Source of the DNA: Ectocarpus siliculosus
Lineage: Eukaryota > Sar > Phaeophyceae > Ectocarpales > Ectocarpaceae
Assembly: GCA_000310025.1 (NCBI GenBank)
Contig: FN648398.1
Location: forward strand, 394,749 to 458,748
Length of the DNA stretch: 64,000 nt
Direction: 5' to 3'
In this document: in pieces, positions 1-61,167 of the stretch
Numbering within the stretch: position 1 is the first letter of the stretch
How the letters are laid out: every line of letters begins with the position of its first letter
Notes under the pieces: model-generated
What the model was told of the DNA's origin: nothing
The model's database searches: none
What the model saw: the letters and a program-made list of their open reading frames with translations, nothing else
Program-made: the position numbers and the translations under genes

Positions 1-3000
1 CAAAGTAGCCTCGCTTCAGTCCATACAATACATGTGGACATGCAGCACTCGGAGTGGTCGCCCTTGTCACCACAGTTTGTAATAGTTTGGGATCGCTTTC
101 AGTCGGCCGCACTCTCTCGCGACGTCCGCATGAGATCGTAGTACTGTAGTTGACGTGTACCGGTGCTGCCCGGAAGTGCGTAGTTCTACACGTAGAACCC
201 TGGGATGAGTGGAGATATGTACTGTAGTCTAGGTATGTATCCAAAAAATTGACACGATGTCATTGGTTTGTGATAGATCGAGCTTCCAAGTATTCCTTGT
301 GGGTTCCCACTTGAAAGAATCGATCAGATGACCACACAAGGAAAAAAATGGCGTGAGGTCTCTTTTCGTGTGTATGAATTGAATATCTTGGGTTCCAGGC
401 AGTTTGGACTCAAGTGCTAATGCAACTCGCTTTGGTAGTTTGTGAATTTTTCAGAAACCGCAGACTATCCCAGTGTGTCTCTTCTGAATCTCTTCGAGGA
501 TTCGGTCCCGTCTTTAAAAGCGGTTTGTTTTCTTTGTACCATATTCTACTATTTAGGTGTTGGCGACGGTTATCGATCAACCGGCATCAGATACAAGCTC
601 TTGCTTGGTTCTGTTGTTCAACGGCCGGCATCGAATACGAAGCAGTGCAGCGTAGTCTCGTACGATATAGGGTAGGTTTTACCTCGGGGGCGCTTGTGAA
701 CCTTATGTTTTTCACTACCATTAATAGCTGACCTCCGAACGCATGCGCGGCGATTCATATTTTACGACAGCGATGGTTGTCCCAGTCACCACGACCCTTG
801 TTCATGCCATTATTGGCATGTCGTCTCGTTCGATGCTGTCAGCACGTACGATGGTGTGGACCAGTTTGTGAGGCGTCGTCAGCGCTTCCCCCCCGTTTGT
901 CACTTGCTTGGCAACATTCTTTTTGCCTTCCGCTTGCCATATTAGGGTGTACGACATTGTTTGTAGTTTGTTCTTGTCTTCGTAGCTTGGTCTTTGGTGT
1001 CATAACATAGTCAGTCGTAGGGCTCGAAGCGTGTGCGAGGTGCTTTTCAAGCAGCCCTTTTCAAGTGGTGATGTCGTATACAACTTTTTCGATGTGAGTG
1101 GCGACTTGTGTCGCGTCTGCCTATTTCACTCGTGTCCAACCAACACCATATCCACCATCCACATCGTAGTGTTTTTTTCTCTGTTTCTGAGATGGATGGA
1201 GTGATGGACCGTTCGTCTATTTGCGGGGCTGACTGTATTCCTGTGTCGGATGCTTGCCGTGACCGTTTCCCCTCATACACAACACTACCACACGCTCGAG
1301 GGCTTTGGCGTCCTTGGGGAAATTATATGTGGTAGTTCCTTGGCGAATGAATGAATTCCGTCTAATTCACTGTGGACCTGACGTTCAAGGCGGACCCGAT
1401 TCGCAGGGTATCCGTCGATTGACTTTTACCAGAATCGGTACACTTTCGATACATACGGCGTCAGTGGCAGGATACTGGTTCGAATCTCCTGGGGTACATT
1501 TTTCCTCCTGACTTGGACACTGTTCCCATGGACACATCTTGGAGTCGATCCTACCGTCCTGGCCACAAGAGGTTCCCAGTTGAGGGAATTCTGTCGGTGG
1601 AGATTGTGATTGTTGAAGACCCGATTCGCAGGGTATCCGTCGATTGGCTTTTACCAGAATAGGTACACCTTCGTATTTTGTTTATTAATGAGTTAAATTT
1701 GGGAGTTTGGTTGATACATTTGGGAGTAGCACGTTCAGACGAAGATACAGCATCCAACAACCAACATTGTATCGTGACGAGATCTCGCGGTAGTGTAACA
1801 CGAGGCCTTGCAACGGGTGGGCTTCTTCTGTGGATGCGGGACTTGTTTTGGCTTGTCTCGAGGTTGACGCGGGCTGCCAGATACTGATTGGATGGAACAC
1901 CGAGATCAAAGCGAAAAAACAAGCTACGCGAGGCGAGTGAATGTGACACGTTTTCTCGCTCGATAGTGTCGAAGAATCGCGAGGTATCGATAGTCGTTTT
2001 CTCCCAAACGCATTATCGCCCGCGAAAGGACTCCAGCCTCGAGCAGAGCGTCATCGTTCGATCTTCTACATGGGTAGCCGCGACAGACGAAAAAAAAGCG
2101 TAATCCATCCAGCGAAATTATGTCGCCACGCCACGCGCCGCTCGTACGGAAGTAACATCTGTATCTTGTCACAGCAGTCTCTTTCCGGTGCTGCATGGAA
2201 CAGCAAGGTTCGACGTCAAACACGAGCACGAACACCCCCGACGTACACGGCACACGGCTACCAGGTCAGAAGTGATTTACCCGTGCAGACAAACACACAA
2301 CAACACCCCTGACAACGGGTTCTCTATGCCATCTCTCTTCTGGTCACATACCGTACACACCAATATCAAGCCAAAAAAAGCAATACATCAAGCACAGCCA
2401 CCCCTCGCCTTCAAACCGCCTTCTTTGTCGCACGGCGGGGTCTTCATCACATACAAAAAATTTAAGCACCGGACAATGTTGTCGGATGTTGCACAACTCG
2501 CCAAACCCCACCACCACCTCCACCACCACACCACCACACCAGCAGCAACAACAACAGCCGGCATCTGCATCAACGCGACGCAGGCCTCCGGTGCTACCCT
2601 GCGGCACAAAGACATGAAGCAAGCATCTTGGGACGAAAGAAACCAACAACCAACAAAATGTGAAAAGCACACGTCAAAAATTGGCGCGGACACGCTCGCT
2701 CTTACAGCTTTGCCCCCCCCCGTGGGGCACCCTGTACAACCTATTACACGGCATACGAAAAAAGTTAGTCGATGTAATCATTTCTCGTCTGACAAATAGC
2801 GCCGGAAATGAAAACAACCACCGACATGTACTAATTTCTCGTTCGCCGAATTGGCGTAGCCTTTGAGGGGAAAGCTACGACGTGTGTCCAAAACACACCG
2901 ACGCTGTGTGAATTGCTCTGTCGACAATCAGCAACAAAACAACTTCCCACCAACTTCAGTCTAACCTTCCCCTGCCGGGATGACTCTCGTCGGAAAAAGA

Positions 3001-3607: not shown

Positions 3608-3914
3608 AGGCGGGGGGGGGGGGGGGGGAAACTAAACTTTTTTCAAAAGAAATCCATGGGGACTTGCCCGGGGGGGGAAATCAATTCAAACAACGGGGAA
3701 ACGGGGCTTTCCTGCCGTAAATGTGCCCCATTTCCAAAACCCCTTTTTTCCTCCCTAAACCTGAACCAAAACCCAAAACTTTTGCCCCCCAAACCCCCTG
3801 GGGGGGAGCGGCCCGGGGAACCCTCAAGCCCCCTCCTGGAACCTTTCAAGGAAATTTGGGCTGGATCGTACCCCCTCCATTGTATTTTCCCCAAACCTAT
3901 CAAAAGGAATGGAA
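3608..3914. other. Probable low-quality sequence at gap edge
   Basis: Almost every homopolymer is stretched (long G, C, A and T runs) right up to the 100-N gap. This pattern is typical of the degraded end of a Sanger trace and not of biological sequence. It interrupts what is probably the upstream part of the Copia element. Open frames through it and the Ns have no meaning. Confidence 0.6.
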
Positions 3915-4014
3915 NNNNNNNNNNNNNNNNNNNNNNNNNNNNNNNNNNNNNNNNNNNNNNNNNNNNNNNNNNNNNNNNNNNNNNNNNNNNNNNNNNNNNN
4001 NNNNNNNNNNNNNN
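3915..4014. other. Assembly gap (100 N)
   Basis: A run of exactly 100 N, the conventional size for a gap of unknown length. Sequence to its right begins inside a Copia gag-pol reading frame. Confidence 0.99.
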
Positions 4015-5877
4015 CTATTTGTAGCTCGTGTCACCAAGCGTCCCACAGTAGACAAAGCTTTTCTATGCCAACCGTACATGCCGAATCCGAAGGGTAGCGA
4101 GCAGTGGCAGGCCGATTCTGGAGCGAGCGCGATGATTTCGAACCAGATAGATCACATGTACGACATTCGCCACTTGGGCCAGGATGAACAATTTATTCAA
4201 ATTGGAGACTCGGCTCTCATCAAGGTTGCAGCTGTAGGAAGCTTAGACCTTCGGTTCCACCAAATCGGAGCCGACGGGAAACAGGAAGACATAGACATTA
4301 CTGTGCCAGAAGTTTTGTTTGTGCCCGGGTGTGGATTCAATCTTTTTTCGGTTTGGAAAGTTTCGCACAAGCATGAAGTCCGCATAAACCCTAGCGGAAC
4401 TCAACTGCTGCACGGTAAACTACGATTCATCCGTGGAGTGTCAAGTGACTCCCTTTTCGCCTCCCGCCTTCCCCACAAAGATGTGTCTCAAGTGAATGTT
4501 GCGCGTGAGAGTTTTCTGGTGAAGCCGGCCTCTACTGCCGAGAGTAGTGACCACTCGAGAGAATGGGCCCATTCCTGCATGTTGAACATCTTTACGCATG
4601 CCCAGAGATCTGAAGTGTTGACTTGCCTTCTGGATTCGGATTTTGAACCCCCCCGCGTGACGGATGTTTCGGCAGAATCCTCTGCCAGGATGATAGATGT
4701 TTGGGAGAGTGCTGAGTGTGACCGTGCTTGGGCTGTGTTGGGTCCGGGTAAGACGCCTTTCCATGTCGGCAATGCAACAAAGGTTATGGATGTTAACACG
4801 TTCCACAACCGTGCCGGCCACTTGTCCGAACCAATCTTGAGGTTATCCGCAAAACAACACGGAATCACCCTCACGGGCACGATGGACAGCTGCCGGTGGT
4901 GCTTGCCGGCGCGGGGGACGAGGGCACCGGTGCCGAAGCAGGTGGGCGGATACCGCGGCAAGAGGGCGCCGAACGACATGTTCCACATCGACATGTGCGG
5001 CGGGTACACGGCGACCATCGGCGGCAACCACTACATGCTCTTCGGTGTGGACGCCGCCACGGGCTGGATCGTCTGCTATGCCATGCGGCGGAAGTCGGAG
5101 GCGTTGGCGGTCTTCAAGCGCATGGTCGTGGACGCCGCCCACAAGGCTGGCACCGCGATCAAGTGCGTCCGGGGCGACTGTGACGCCCTCTGGACCAGCG
5201 GCGACTTCAAGGAGTTCTGTGCCAGCATGGGGATCGCGATCGAGTACTCCCCACCCGGCGTGCAGCAGTACAACGGCGTCGTCGAGAGCGCCATCCAGAG
5301 GTGCCTCAAGGTCGGCAAGGCGTCTCGCCGCGCTGCCCAAGAGATACTTGGCCCCGCTTGATTTTCTCGTATCCGCGGGCTGAGCGTTCGGGGCGACGAG
5401 CTCTGGGCGGAGTCCGCAAAAGACGCCGCGCAGAAGCTGAACCAGTCTGCACCTCCTTCCAACGCAGGGGGTGCCTCGCCGCAGGAGCTCTACACCGGCA
5501 AGAAACGACCCTTCCGTTTGGTACCGTTTTTCCAGTACGGTTTCATGTGGGAGCGGCCGGCGACCAAGATGGACGACAGGGCAGTGCCGTGTTTTTTCCT
5601 GAATGGCGGCGACAACCACGCCGACATCACGGTCAAGGTGCTCAAGGAAAGGACCGCCCACGTCTGCTACTCTTCGAATGTGGCGTGGGCGGCGCTCCCG
5701 CCGTCGGGGGGGGGGGGGGGGGGGGGTATCACGCACAATGGAATCTTGACCGAGGCAAAATCCACGCACGTCCAATCTCCCAATAACGATCGGCCGGCGG
5801 CCCCAAGAGAAGACTCCAAGACCGTACTTCATCAACGCCAACGTGTTGACAAAAACACCTCCACACAGCGACCGTGA
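4015..5877 (+). mobile_element. Ty1/Copia retrotransposon pol fragment (protease-integrase), decayed
   Basis: One frame reads through an aspartic protease signature (DSGAS, about 4113), a pre-integrase zinc motif (HNRAGH with CRWC, 4800-4905) and an integrase core with the three acidic residues in FHIDMC, VRGDCDALW and GVVESAIQ. This order of protease then integrase before any reverse transcriptase is the Copia arrangement. A TGA at 5359-5361 breaks the frame, and the same frame then stays open to 5877 and still reads like the integrase C-terminal region. No reverse transcriptase or RNase H follows, so the copy is 3'-truncated, and the gap removes its 5' part. The first 70 bases match the last 70 bases of the window, so both belong to one family. 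It lies antisense and downstream of the NAD kinase exons. No LTR was delimited. Confidence 0.9.
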
Positions 5878-12476: not shown

Positions 12477-17092
<4,616 letters not shown>

Positions 17093-44618: not shown

Positions 44619-44666
44619 TTGGCGCAGATCAAATTGGTGAGTTTTTCAAGGGAGACTGTATATAAA
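44619..44666 (+). promoter_or_regulatory. U5 snRNA promoter: upstream element plus TATA box
   Basis: TTGGCGCAGATCAAA (44619-44633) lies at about -74 to -60 and GTATATAAA (44658-44666) at about -35 to -27 of the proposed U5 start. A TTGGTGAGTTT stretch just after the first element is shared with the U1 promoters. Confidence 0.85.
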
Positions 44667-44692
44667 CCGCCGGCACCTGCAACCACCTAATC

Positions 44693-44802
44693 ATCTCCGA
44701 TCCTCTCGCATCACGAACTTCACCCTCGCCTTTTACTAGGATGAACCGTGCGGAGAGGATCCTGAAGGAGTATCACTGATTTTTGACCCCACTCCGTGGG
44801 GT
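44693..44802 (+). ncRNA. U5 spliceosomal snRNA
   Basis: U5 holds the exons together during both splicing steps. The invariant loop I sequence CGCCTTTTACTA is at 44727-44738, on top of a long stem whose base pairs GATCCTCTC with GAGAGGATC. An Sm site (GATTTTTGA, about 44779) follows, and a short 3' hairpin (ACCCC/GGGGT) ends near 44802. The length of about 110 nt fits U5. The 5' end is placed from the promoter spacing and an initial A, so it is good to a few bases. Confidence 0.93.
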
Positions 44803-45541
44803 AAGAAGGACCACGGCGTACGCGTTGCTTGCCCATACCACATCCCAACCTCAACCAACACCCACAGCAACACCGCACAAAAAACAACAACAAAACAAAA
44901 TTGCTTGGACGCACCGTACACAGCAGACAGACGGCACAGGAGCACATACATAGCGTGACCTCTGTGAATTGCGCCCCCTTCCTTCCTCTGATGTCTCTAA
45001 AAGTCATGAATAAACATCACAACAAGACGTTCTTCTGTCCGTCACCCCCGCCCGACAGCGTCCATCACACTTAGTAGTAGTTGTTGTTGTTGTTGTTGTC
45101 TTCACATTAAAAACCGTTCCGATCTCTCTCTACCCAGTACCTTCGTATGTCCGTAATGATCCAACACTCGACGCGGTCGATTCCCGTGGTCACAGGTTAA
45201 CTTACCCTAAAAAGGTACACTCAAATAAACTGGCCCCGAGGGGTCCGCAAGTCAATAGAAATCAACGACAGATATTCTGGGATCCTCCGCTCCCTCTTCA
45301 CGCTATGCGGGGTATCAACTGAGATTAGCAGTCACTATCTATCATGGGCCGGAGAGAAAGAGGCACACTCCCTTGGTTTAATCTTGGTACTTCACAACGC
45401 AAGCAGAGACAAGTCCATCTGGCACAGAAAAAGAGAGAAAAAAAGAGCGAAAAAAAAAAGGACAAAGAGGAAAAAAGAAAAGAAAAGAAAAAAAAAGTAG
45501 GCACCCCATAGAATAACAGAAACGTTTGCTGACACCGACGT
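44803..45541. other. Spacer between U5 and U2
   Basis: No gene. A/C-rich sequence follows U5 (44850-44900), and there is a GTT run at 45078-45100. Confidence 0.6.
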
Positions 45542-45586
45542 TTGGCGCAGACCAAAATACCCCCCTTTTCAGGCTTGAGTGTATAG
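45542..45586 (+). promoter_or_regulatory. U2 snRNA promoter: upstream element plus TATA-like box
   Basis: TTGGCGCAGACCAAA (45542-45556) lies at -73 to -59 of U2, and a weak TATA-like GTATAGGAAA (45581-45590) at about -34. The 15-bp element is identical to that of both U1 genes. Confidence 0.85.
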
Positions 45587-45614
45587 GAAAAAAAACTGGC
45601 ACGGCTAGAACGGC

Positions 45615-45805
45615 ATACCTTCTCGGCCTTTTGGCTAAGATCATGTGTAGTATCTGTTCTAATCAGTGTGAAAACTGATTGACGCTCAATGAGCGTCATT
45701 TTCACACCTGTTTTTGAAATCGTCGGGTTCGCACTGCTTGCAGTGTTCCGGCAGGATTTCCTCGGCATTCCACTACCGCCTTGTGAGGTCCGTCCCCTCG
45801 GGGAC
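45615..45805 (+). ncRNA. U2 spliceosomal snRNA
   Basis: U2 pairs with the intron branch site. The 5' end ATACCTTCTCGGCCTTTTGG and following AAGATCA form the canonical stem-loop I. The branch-point recognition sequence GTAGTA is at 45647-45652. Stem IIa (AATCAGT/ACTGATT) and IIb (GACGCTC/GAGCGTC) are perfect, then an Sm site (TGTTTTTGA, about 45709), stem III (GTCGGG..CACTGC/GCAGTG..CCGGC) and a terminal hairpin GTCCCC/GGGGAC ending at 45805. The length of 191 nt is typical. It is convergent with the U1 gene 200 bp downstream. Confidence 0.97.
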
Positions 45806-45830
45806 ACAAACAACAAAACCAACCACCCAA
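45805..45830 (+). promoter_or_regulatory. Candidate snRNA 3'-end signal (A/C-rich)
   Basis: CACAAACAAC follows U2 immediately and recurs 23 bp after the plus-strand U1 (60817-60826). U5 and the minus-strand U1 are also followed by A/C-rich tracts of CAACA type. By analogy with snRNA 3' boxes this may direct 3'-end formation; low complexity makes it weak. Confidence 0.35.
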
Positions 45831-46004
45831 AAAACACGATCATCAGCACGGATGCAAACAACTTCCCACCCCCACTAAAACTGAATAATATCACCTGTGT
45901 CCGTTTCAATGTGCAGGTGAGTTTGGGTGTGGTGATGGCTAATTAAGCGGTGTTCCGTTGTCGCGTGTACTGTGTTGTGTTGTGTTGTGTTTTTTTGTGT
46001 TGGT

Positions 46005-46176
46005 GGGAGGGTCGCAAGCGAACACCTCCCCGGAAAAAAATTATGCGGTAGAGATACCCCCGAAGGAATATTCTCCAGGGATTACAGCACTCCAGGGTCT
46101 AGCCCAGTGCAAGAGCCTGCTCCCCCTGGGGTCACCAGTCATCTTGACCACTGGCAAGCCCCCGCCAGGTAAGTAT
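46005..46176 (-). ncRNA. U1 spliceosomal snRNA, copy 1
   Basis: U1 recognises the 5' splice site. Read on minus, it starts ATACTTACCTG, the canonical splice-site-pairing end, then stem-loop I, stem-loop II containing TTGCACT (the U1A-binding core), stem-loop III, Sm site AATTTTTTT and a 3' hairpin (GGGAGG/CCTCCC). The length is 172 nt. By eye it is identical across the whole RNA to the copy at 60623-60794. Translations across it give a repeated protein-like string that is not a protein. Confidence 0.96.
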
Positions 46177-46202
46177 ACTTGCTGCTTACAGCGTCGGTAT
46201 TC

Positions 46203-46250
46203 TTTATATATAGTCAACCGTCCTAAACTCACCACTTTGGTCTGCGCCAA
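46203..46250 (-). promoter_or_regulatory. U1 copy 1 promoter: upstream element plus TATA box
   Basis: On minus, TTGGCGCAGACCAAA (46236-46250) lies at -74 to -60 and TATATATAAA (46203-46212) at -36 to -27 of U1. Sequence homology with the other U1 copy ends just upstream of the 15-bp element. Confidence 0.87.
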
Positions 46251-60548: not shown

Positions 60549-60596
60549 TTGGCGCAGACCAAAGTGGTGAGTTTAGGACGGTTGACTATATATAAA
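60549..60596 (+). promoter_or_regulatory. U1 copy 2 promoter: upstream element plus TATA box
   Basis: TTGGCGCAGACCAAA (60549-60563) at -74 to -60 and TATATATAAA (60587-60596) at -36 to -27, the same positions as in U1 copy 1. Confidence 0.87.
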
Positions 60597-60622: not shown

Positions 60623-60794
60623 ATACTTACCTGGCGGGGGCTTGCCAGTGGTCAAGATGACTGGTGACCCCAGGGGGAGCAGGCTCTTGCACTGGGCTAG
60701 ACCCTGGAGTGCTGTAATCCCTGGAGAATATTCCTTCGGGGGTATCTCTACCGCATAATTTTTTTCCGGGGAGGTGTTCGCTTGCGACCCTCCC
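60623..60794 (+). ncRNA. U1 spliceosomal snRNA, copy 2
   Basis: Starts ATACTTACCTGGCGGGGGC; Sm site AATTTTTTT at 60757-60765; 3' hairpin GGGAGG/CCTCCC ending at 60794. Identical by eye to copy 1 over 172 nt. Upstream of the shared promoter (about -76) and downstream of the A/C-rich tract the two copies diverge, so the duplicated or homogenised unit is little more than promoter plus gene. Confidence 0.96.
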
Positions 60795-61167
60795 ACCAAC
60801 ACAAAACACAACACAACACAAACAACGAATGTACAACCAACACAACCAAACACTACTATTTACTGTAGCTGCCAACCAGAACGCCCACGCGCACAAGTGA
60901 TTGATAAACACAATCACTTACGACATGTGATGTACAATGTACAATGTTGGATGTACTCACAGCATCAACAGATTATTGCGAGCAAGAATTTCCCGAGCAG
61001 ATGGAGCGGGGAGTTTGGGGGGTCAATGGTTGCTATGGATTAGATTTGGTGGTACCAACTTTATCACATATTGCAGGTTTGAGGGTATGGGTGTCTACAA
61101 CGGAATTTGTGTGCGTGGCTTGTGGTTCCTCACTTCCTTTTTCTGTGTATAATCAAGTCCTTTTTCC

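Follow-up and report, generated by a model that had tools for sequence, protein, structure and literature searches.

In a stretch of 64,000 nucleotides from the brown alga Ectocarpus siliculosus (contig FN648398.1, positions 394,749 to 458,748; "the window" denotes this whole stretch), the genes for the U1, U2 and U5 spliceosomal RNAs share a 15-bp upstream element, TTGGCGCAGAYCAAA. We propose, with a probability of roughly 0.84, that this 15-mer, often in an extended form, is the proximal core-promoter element of RNA polymerase II (Pol II) small RNA genes in this lineage, by analogy the equivalent of the proximal sequence element (PSE) of animals or the upstream sequence element (USE) of plants. 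Judged from the genes that it precedes, the promoter appears to serve U1, U2, U4, U5, U3 and a family of structured RNAs that we call A, B and C, and not U6, as one class of small RNA genes.

The element at spliceosomal RNA genes

The exact 15-mer has four sites in the window (Table 1), and the sole further match with up to three mismatches, at 13844 (three mismatches), is at chance level. With the genes placed by Rfam, the element started at -74 for U5 and both U1 copies and at -73 for U2, and TATA-like strings started at -37 to -34 ahead of U5, U2 and U1. These results confirmed the positions of the element and of the TATA or TATA-like box given in the original prediction, which had been made from the sequence of the window. 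The predicted identity between U1 and U2 with one change in U5 was also borne out, the element reading GACC in U1 and U2 and GATC in U5 (TTGGCGCAGATCAAA). The flanks, said to be unrelated, are indeed so across the spacers of U1, U2 and U5, but not between the two U1 copies, whose promoter flanks are near-identical. The U1 copies are thus duplicates, which leaves three independent cases in the window: U1, U2 and U5.

For a test blind to the element, genes were searched across the assembly (189,456,909 bases in 492 contigs) with covariance models, and the 120 bases upstream of each were then scanned on the sense strand only. The searches yielded at least six U1, nine U2, one U4, five U5 and one U6 genes, these counts being lower bounds. 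The element preceded all six U1 genes with 0-2 changes, all five U5 genes with 0-1 changes, and the single U4 gene without change. It also preceded eight of the nine U2 genes: six intact genes with 0-3 changes, and two divergent copies, one with an unchanged element and one with a single change, at -47 and -92, odd offsets that probably reflect a misplaced 5' end of the model. The ninth U2 is 5'-truncated and lacks the element. By chance, a match with up to three changes is expected in about 0.003 of such scans of 106 positions (3.7 per 64 kb on both strands).

The blind test also bears on whether the identity of the 15-mer reflects recent whole-gene duplication or gene conversion rather than selection. 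Many copies do have conserved flanks, among them the window U1 pair and tandemly repeated A-type genes (units of roughly 1 kb, 98% identical). However, the blind-found U1, U2, U4 and U5 genes share the element despite unrelated spacers and RNAs, and the element is still recognisable ahead of several A-type copies at 82-90% identity. The duplication explanation is therefore largely refuted by the cross-family comparison, and we regard it as extremely unlikely. Where the families at the exact sites were compared, the representatives were mostly picked for an exact site, so that identity of the 15-mer among them is partly due to selection of the examples, and the independent evidence is the blind gene test.

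To describe the gene layout, we used 21 intact genes (six U1, six U2, one U4, five U5 and three U3), with TATA scanned from -45 to -15. The element started between -71 and -75 in 18 of them; of the other three, one U1 has it at -80 and two U2 genes have it at -82. A TATA-like string started between -40 and -34 in 20 of the 21. Downstream, the 60 nt beginning 5 nt past the RNA had an A+C content of 0.70-0.98 in the 20 genes with readable flanks, and of at least 0.77 in 19 of these, the exception being the window U5 (0.70). For comparison, random 60-mers of the window average 0.50, with the 99th percentile at 0.72. The sequence of the element, its spacing, its association with genes and the tract downstream can all be read directly from the DNA, and element, TATA and A/C-rich tract together make up a single gene layout.

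That the spacing is almost constant speaks for a core element. An alternative is that the 15-mer is a general activator site, for example E2F-like or NFI-like, and that the core is recognised by TATA alone; indeed, it holds TTGGCGC and an imperfect TTGG-N6-CCAA dyad, seen by eye against the E2F and NFI consensus sequences. Against this stand the sense orientation and the almost constant distances to TATA and to the RNA start at the blind-found genes (scanned on the sense strand), the constancy of the 15-mer within 0-3 changes across blind-found U1, U2, U4 and U5, and the small number of sites away from small RNA genes and one repeat, unlike what a general activator would show. We consider the activator explanation very unlikely.

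Two further gene clusters were seen. One (L066, C479:121425-124226) contains a divergent U2, U1, U5, U2 and U1 and lies about 316 kb from the window cluster on the same contig. The other (L011, C3:2553789-2556477) is a compact U4-U1-(solo promoter)-U2-U5 cluster with the sole U4 gene found.

Table 1. Small RNA genes of the window and their promoter and 3' features
Feature	Positions	Strand	Details
15-bp element of U5 (TTGGCGCAGATCAAA)	44619..44633	+	-74/-60
Second half of extended element, GGTGAGTTT, U5	44636..44644	+	
TATA box TATATAAA of U5	44659..44666	+	
U5 spliceosomal RNA	44693..44802	+	Rfam RF00020, 65.6 bits
A/C-rich tract of U5	44841..44900	+	0.93 A+C, best 60-mer, begins 39 nt past RNA
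15-bp element of U2	45542..45556	+	-73/-59; no GGTGAGTTT after it
TATA-like box TATAGG of U2	45582..45587	+	
U2 spliceosomal RNA	45615..45798	+	Rfam RF00004, 142.5 bits
A/C-rich tract of U2	45804..45863	+	0.85 A+C
A/C-rich tract of U1 copy 1	45940..45999	-	0.82 A+C
U1 spliceosomal RNA copy 1	46005..46176	-	Rfam RF00003, 90.5 bits
TATA box TATATATAAA of U1 copy 1	46203..46212	-	
GGTGAGTTT half of extended element, U1 copy 1	46225..46233	-	
15-bp element of U1 copy 1	46236..46250	-	-74/-60
15-bp element of U1 copy 2	60549..60563	+	-74/-60
GGTGAGTTT half of extended element, U1 copy 2	60566..60574	+	
TATA box of U1 copy 2	60587..60596	+	
U1 spliceosomal RNA copy 2	60623..60794	+	Rfam RF00003, 90.5 bits
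A/C-rich tract of U1 copy 2	60800..60859	+	0.88 A+C

Sites across the genome, U6 and U3

Genome-wide, the exact 15-mer has 64 sites and the backwards-read control pattern has none, while about 0.69 sites are expected from base composition (assumed GC 0.53; the GC content of the window is near 53%). With up to one mismatch there are 144 sites versus 17 for the reversed control; 36 of the 80 one-mismatch sites, among the matches listed, were inspected. Many sites extend as TTGGCGCAGACCAAA-NN-GGTGAGTTT (26 bp, 24 specified letters), and with up to three mismatches this extended motif has 80 sites in the genome and none in the control.

Seventeen of the 64 exact sites lie at U1 (5), U2 (4, one of them divergent), U4 (1), U5 (4) and U3 (3), and 26 at the A/B/C RNA family. 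These 26 were labelled by script as 15 A, 8 B and 3 C, and by hand as 16 A, 8 B and 2 C, because one scripted C is an A with a variant letter in the second unit. Taken together, 43 sites are at identified small RNAs or A/B/C RNAs, 15 are in a repeat, five are unassigned and one (C308) is solitary, a promoter without a unit behind it. Since 47 of the 64 exact sites are outside the U1-U5 and U3 genes and 26 are at A/B/C RNAs, the element is a small RNA promoter signal and not strictly a code for small nuclear RNA (snRNA) genes.

The single U6 gene found (L076, C30) differs from the other spliceosomal RNA genes in the features scanned. The best element match in the 120 nt upstream has six mismatches, no TATA was found between -45 and -15, and the 3' flank has an A+C content of 0.42 plus a T-run. 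In plants and animals U6 has the same element as the Pol II snRNA genes, so that U6 without the element sets this genome apart from both. It appears from its flanks that U6 relies on something other than the 15-mer promoter. A core pattern taken from U6 had one exact site in the genome and, with up to two mismatches, 10 sites versus 9 in the control. The GGTTCGA upstream of U6 resembles a box B motif. A trypanosome-style, tRNA-adjacent U6 promoter was considered and rejected, no tRNA gene being found in the 606 bases of the locus (ARAGORN, bacterial code).

Three U3 genes were recognised among the loci fetched for the element, all with the element. Their scores of 46.7-49.4 bits are under the Rfam gathering thresholds of 80-95, with E = 1e-9 to 7e-9.

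The original prediction had suggested that the element was the snRNA promoter code of the lineage, to be found about 74 bp upstream of the spliceosomal RNA genes, and had named frequent sites elsewhere or its absence from other snRNA genes as grounds to give the idea up. The element does stand upstream of U1 (6/6), U2 (8/9), U4 (1/1), U5 (5/5) and also U3, near -74 in most of the intact genes, and behaves as an snRNA promoter signal. On the other hand, it is absent at U6, it also precedes other RNA genes, and most exact sites are found outside U1-U5 and U3. Both of the named grounds hold in part, and what is left of the idea is a promoter for one class of small RNA genes, without U6.

The 15 repeat sites are on C9, C25, C32, C33, C64, C81, C161 and C464. 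Four of six aligned copies (C9, C25, C64 and C81) agree through a hairpin, CCCCAATTTTGCAATTGGGG, and then diverge, the C64 copy being one base shorter at the hairpin. Such abrupt divergence behind CCCCAATTTTGCAATTGGGG fits the end of a mobile element, and the promoter may have been acquired by a mobile-looking repeat. The repeat, seen at L027, L049, L058 and related loci, has several element copies. Telomerase RNA was also considered and set aside: a 9-nt template for TTAGGG repeats was sought in the first 650 bases from each of 100 sites, and the one match, in L027 at 411 bases past the element start, is absent from the other aligned repeat copies.

A family of predicted three-way-junction RNAs

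The predicted RNAs at the 26 A/B/C sites are built from units of the form GAGAG-UUUGGCUGGCAC...GUGUUUCAG-UCUUACAG...CUGU-CUCUC, with two units in each predicted A and C transcript and three in B. Each unit is predicted to fold into a three-way junction in which a closing stem holds two hairpins. Among the first units (A1, B1 and C1) the sequence of this stem varies, and in a matrix of cross-pairing energies each of the three pairs best with its own partner. Over all unit types, pairing with the own partner was best or tied in six of seven, the exception being A2 (-7.9 with B3 vs -7.3 with its own).

In single-sequence folding, the gain over shuffled sequences was modest (z from -0.27 to -2.50 for seven units), and the case for the three-way junction therefore rests on covariation. 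In the nine A units, 93.1% of cells were paired and the covariation score was 0.290 versus 0.131 after shuffling, a value reached in 0 of 500 shuffles; two other measures were within the shuffles (double-change pairs 187/500, further pair types 455/500). A model built from these nine units found 84 units, in which 13 of 21 pairs had changes on both sides, 92.3% of cells were paired and the score was 0.319 versus 0.141 shuffled (0/500 on all five measures; slid versions at most 0.087), with the reservation that this alignment was fitted to the model and is thus biased toward the structure. The 84 units came from 32 of 77 sources, all belonging to the A/B/C cluster and none in the window. A second set of 26 sources added 33 units in 20 of them, a few at the end being weak.

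A search with the A-type RNA gave at least 41 matches at at least 40 loci (46 first-look candidates, 40 scored). A listed element was upstream of 30 of the 40 loci; in 27 it lay 68-72 bases ahead of the point where the query begins, an arbitrary reference. Of the remaining ten loci, three are 5'-truncated and seven have a decayed or hardly recognisable element near the expected place. The family thus comprises about 60 loci, some of them fragments: 40 of type A by RNA search, and 14 of type B and 7 of type C counted from element sites only. An A/C-rich tract like that of the snRNA genes closes most A- and C-type genes and is weaker in B, often 0.77-0.80. At L103 (C33:2200500-2210000), A-type genes are tandemly repeated, the units measuring about 1,042 bp and being 98% identical, and the tandem lies near an open reading frame that resembles, by eye, the reverse transcriptase of a long interspersed nuclear element (LINE).

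Rfam 15 gave no family match on the RNA in four unit-bearing loci (L001, L003, L018 and L052) at E up to 3, the only match in these loci being one of E 2.7 on L003, outside the RNA. Within the literature searchable, the A/B/C RNA family appears undescribed. We lean slightly towards the view that this lineage has an undescribed and plentiful class of small RNAs in the nucleus, whose transcripts would measure about 160-260 nt, with two or three three-way-junction modules, encoded at about 60 loci, many in tandem and some fragments. These RNAs would share the core promoter of U1, U2, U4 and U5, a promoter also present in the mobile-looking repeat, and would be independent analogues of the Class I RNAs of Dictyostelium, with the modules as repeated protein-binding platforms. 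Some A2 units, such as that at about 487-547 (-) of L002, contain TCTTACAGCAA, which is partly paired and variable. It is near the 11-nt motif of the Dictyostelium Class I RNAs, a likeness that is probably coincidental.

Several other loci carry the element. At L009 (C2:4921641, -), it is accompanied by a TATA-like box and an A/C tract, and in the RNA a GC-rich hairpin comes after CTTTTAATTTGTCGAG. This RNA resembles U7 snRNA in its motifs, but a U7 identity was set aside: a histone stem-loop pattern in a restricted form, GGYYCTTHTHAGRRCC, had 4 sites versus 28 in the reversed control, with no sign of such stem-loops in that form, and Rfam gave no U7 match. The gene at C22:524113 (-; L046/L106) has the element and TATA, and its RNA contains GAGGAAAGTT, which resembles the CR-I motif of RNase P/MRP; no such Rfam match was found at E up to 10, and this identity was rejected also. 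Two related genes on C99 (L059 and L060) have the element, a TATA-like box and a distal A/C tract, and the block around GTTCGAACGTGTCGGTGTGGTACCTTG conserved between them suggests a further, unassigned structured RNA. A viral origin was rejected, since neither the extended element nor the RNA cores of A and B were matched exactly in IMG/VR. Elsewhere in the window, a Copia-like polyprotein fragment at 3721-5361 (+) has the Pfam domains Pol_BBD and rve and an internal run of N.

Proposed promoter mechanism, probable polymerase and known systems

By analogy with the snRNA-activating protein complex (SNAPc) at the PSE and with the USE and TATA promoters of plants, we infer a factor, a polymerase, start sites and a mode of 3' processing for these genes. 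A dedicated factor, most likely a counterpart of SNAPc, would bind the 26-bp element at about -72 to -47 and, together with the TATA-binding protein on the TATA-like box near -34, would position Pol II. Transcription would begin about 72 bases downstream of the element start, and the transcript would end via a 3' signal tied to the A/C-rich tract.

Several observations weigh against this proposal or limit its support. The U4 gene, two of the six intact U2 genes and two of the five U5 genes have the GGTGAGTTT half of the extended element in altered form or not at all. The 15 repeat sites and the five unassigned sites lie at no recognised small RNA, and at 14 of the 15 repeat sites the A/C tract of the snRNA type is missing at a threshold of 0.75 (A+C of the best downstream 60-mer 0.55-0.68, and 0.75 in one). 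Downstream A+C is 0.93 in one divergent U2, and only ordinary to raised in the other (0.63) and in the truncated U2 (0.67). The three U3 genes are not an independent count, since U3 was sought only in element-bearing loci. A search for SNAPC3 (PF12251) gave no candidates here, and likewise none in controls, so that it speaks neither for nor against the proposal. Finally, in the B genes the first unit and the second are each followed by T-runs of about 6-14, and those behind the first unit are a possible stop for RNA polymerase III (Pol III).

In another explanation, the element is common to Pol II and Pol III genes, like the plant USE and the animal PSE, and some of the genes here (U3, the B-type RNAs and the unassigned RNAs of the C22 and C99 loci) are transcribed by Pol III. 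The T-runs would permit a Pol III transcript of the first B unit alone, plants make U3 by Pol III, and the Dictyostelium upstream sequence element (DUSE) is associated with genes of both polymerases (PMC7919456). However, U6, the reference Pol III gene, has neither the element nor TATA, the spacing and A/C tract of U3 match those of U1-U5, and B units 2 and 3 are conserved past the T-runs, which favours read-through and is no proof of it. We consider a Pol III origin of these RNAs unlikely, though clearly less so than the activator or duplication explanations. It overlaps the Pol II core-promoter proposal and would alter only a subset of the genes; indeed, the alternatives are not mutually exclusive.

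Plant snRNA promoters have a USE near -70 and a TATA box near -30, common to the snRNA genes. The algal promoter is alike in having an upstream element and a TATA box across snRNA genes. It apparently differs in the sequence of the element, which shows no resemblance by eye to the USE consensus, and it differs in the greater length of the element (15 nearly invariant bp, 26 when extended) and in U6, which is included in plants and not here. In animals, snRNA genes have the PSE close upstream, at a set distance from the start, and SNAPc, the dedicated complex that binds it, is the subject of PMC9652321, PMC6004067 and PMC9758055. The element of Ectocarpus likewise lies close upstream of snRNA genes at a nearly constant distance. 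It differs from the animal PSE in sequence and in its more distal position; moreover, the Pol II snRNA genes here have TATA-like boxes, and U6 is without the element.

The nearest published system known to us is that of the DUSE and the Class I RNAs of Dictyostelium. As described there (PMC7919456), the DUSE lies about 60 nt upstream, and the Class I RNAs, of which 18-39 are predicted per species, have one short terminal stem and a largely unpaired 11-nt motif. In both systems a single upstream element stands at the spliceosomal RNA genes and also at a structured RNA family with many copies. The DUSE differs from the 15-mer in sequence and spacing, and the A/B/C RNAs do not fit the single stem and 11-nt motif of Class I, having a three-way junction with the ACAG letters in a stem. 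A paper on diatom small RNAs (PMC4247016) describes U2 fragments and, in the part covered, no snRNA promoter.

In the literature searched, which takes in few subscription papers, there was no match to the element in either orientation, to its final 13 letters or to a 17-letter core of the A-type RNA. Among the literature matches listed, there was no report on snRNA promoters of stramenopiles, brown algae, diatoms or oomycetes. The promoter or the RNA family may have been described before. As proposed here, the promoter belongs to a known type, in a version peculiar to this lineage.

To our knowledge, snRNA promoters are little described beyond animals, plants, yeasts, trypanosomes and Dictyostelium. 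The 15-bp word, its spacing and the 3' tract allow candidate Pol II small RNA genes to be listed by pattern; it was through this word that U3 was found, along with a structured RNA family without an Rfam match in the loci scanned. The separate regulation of U6 that is suggested here is relevant to the design of guide RNAs, and the element offers a promoter for small RNA expression in such organisms.

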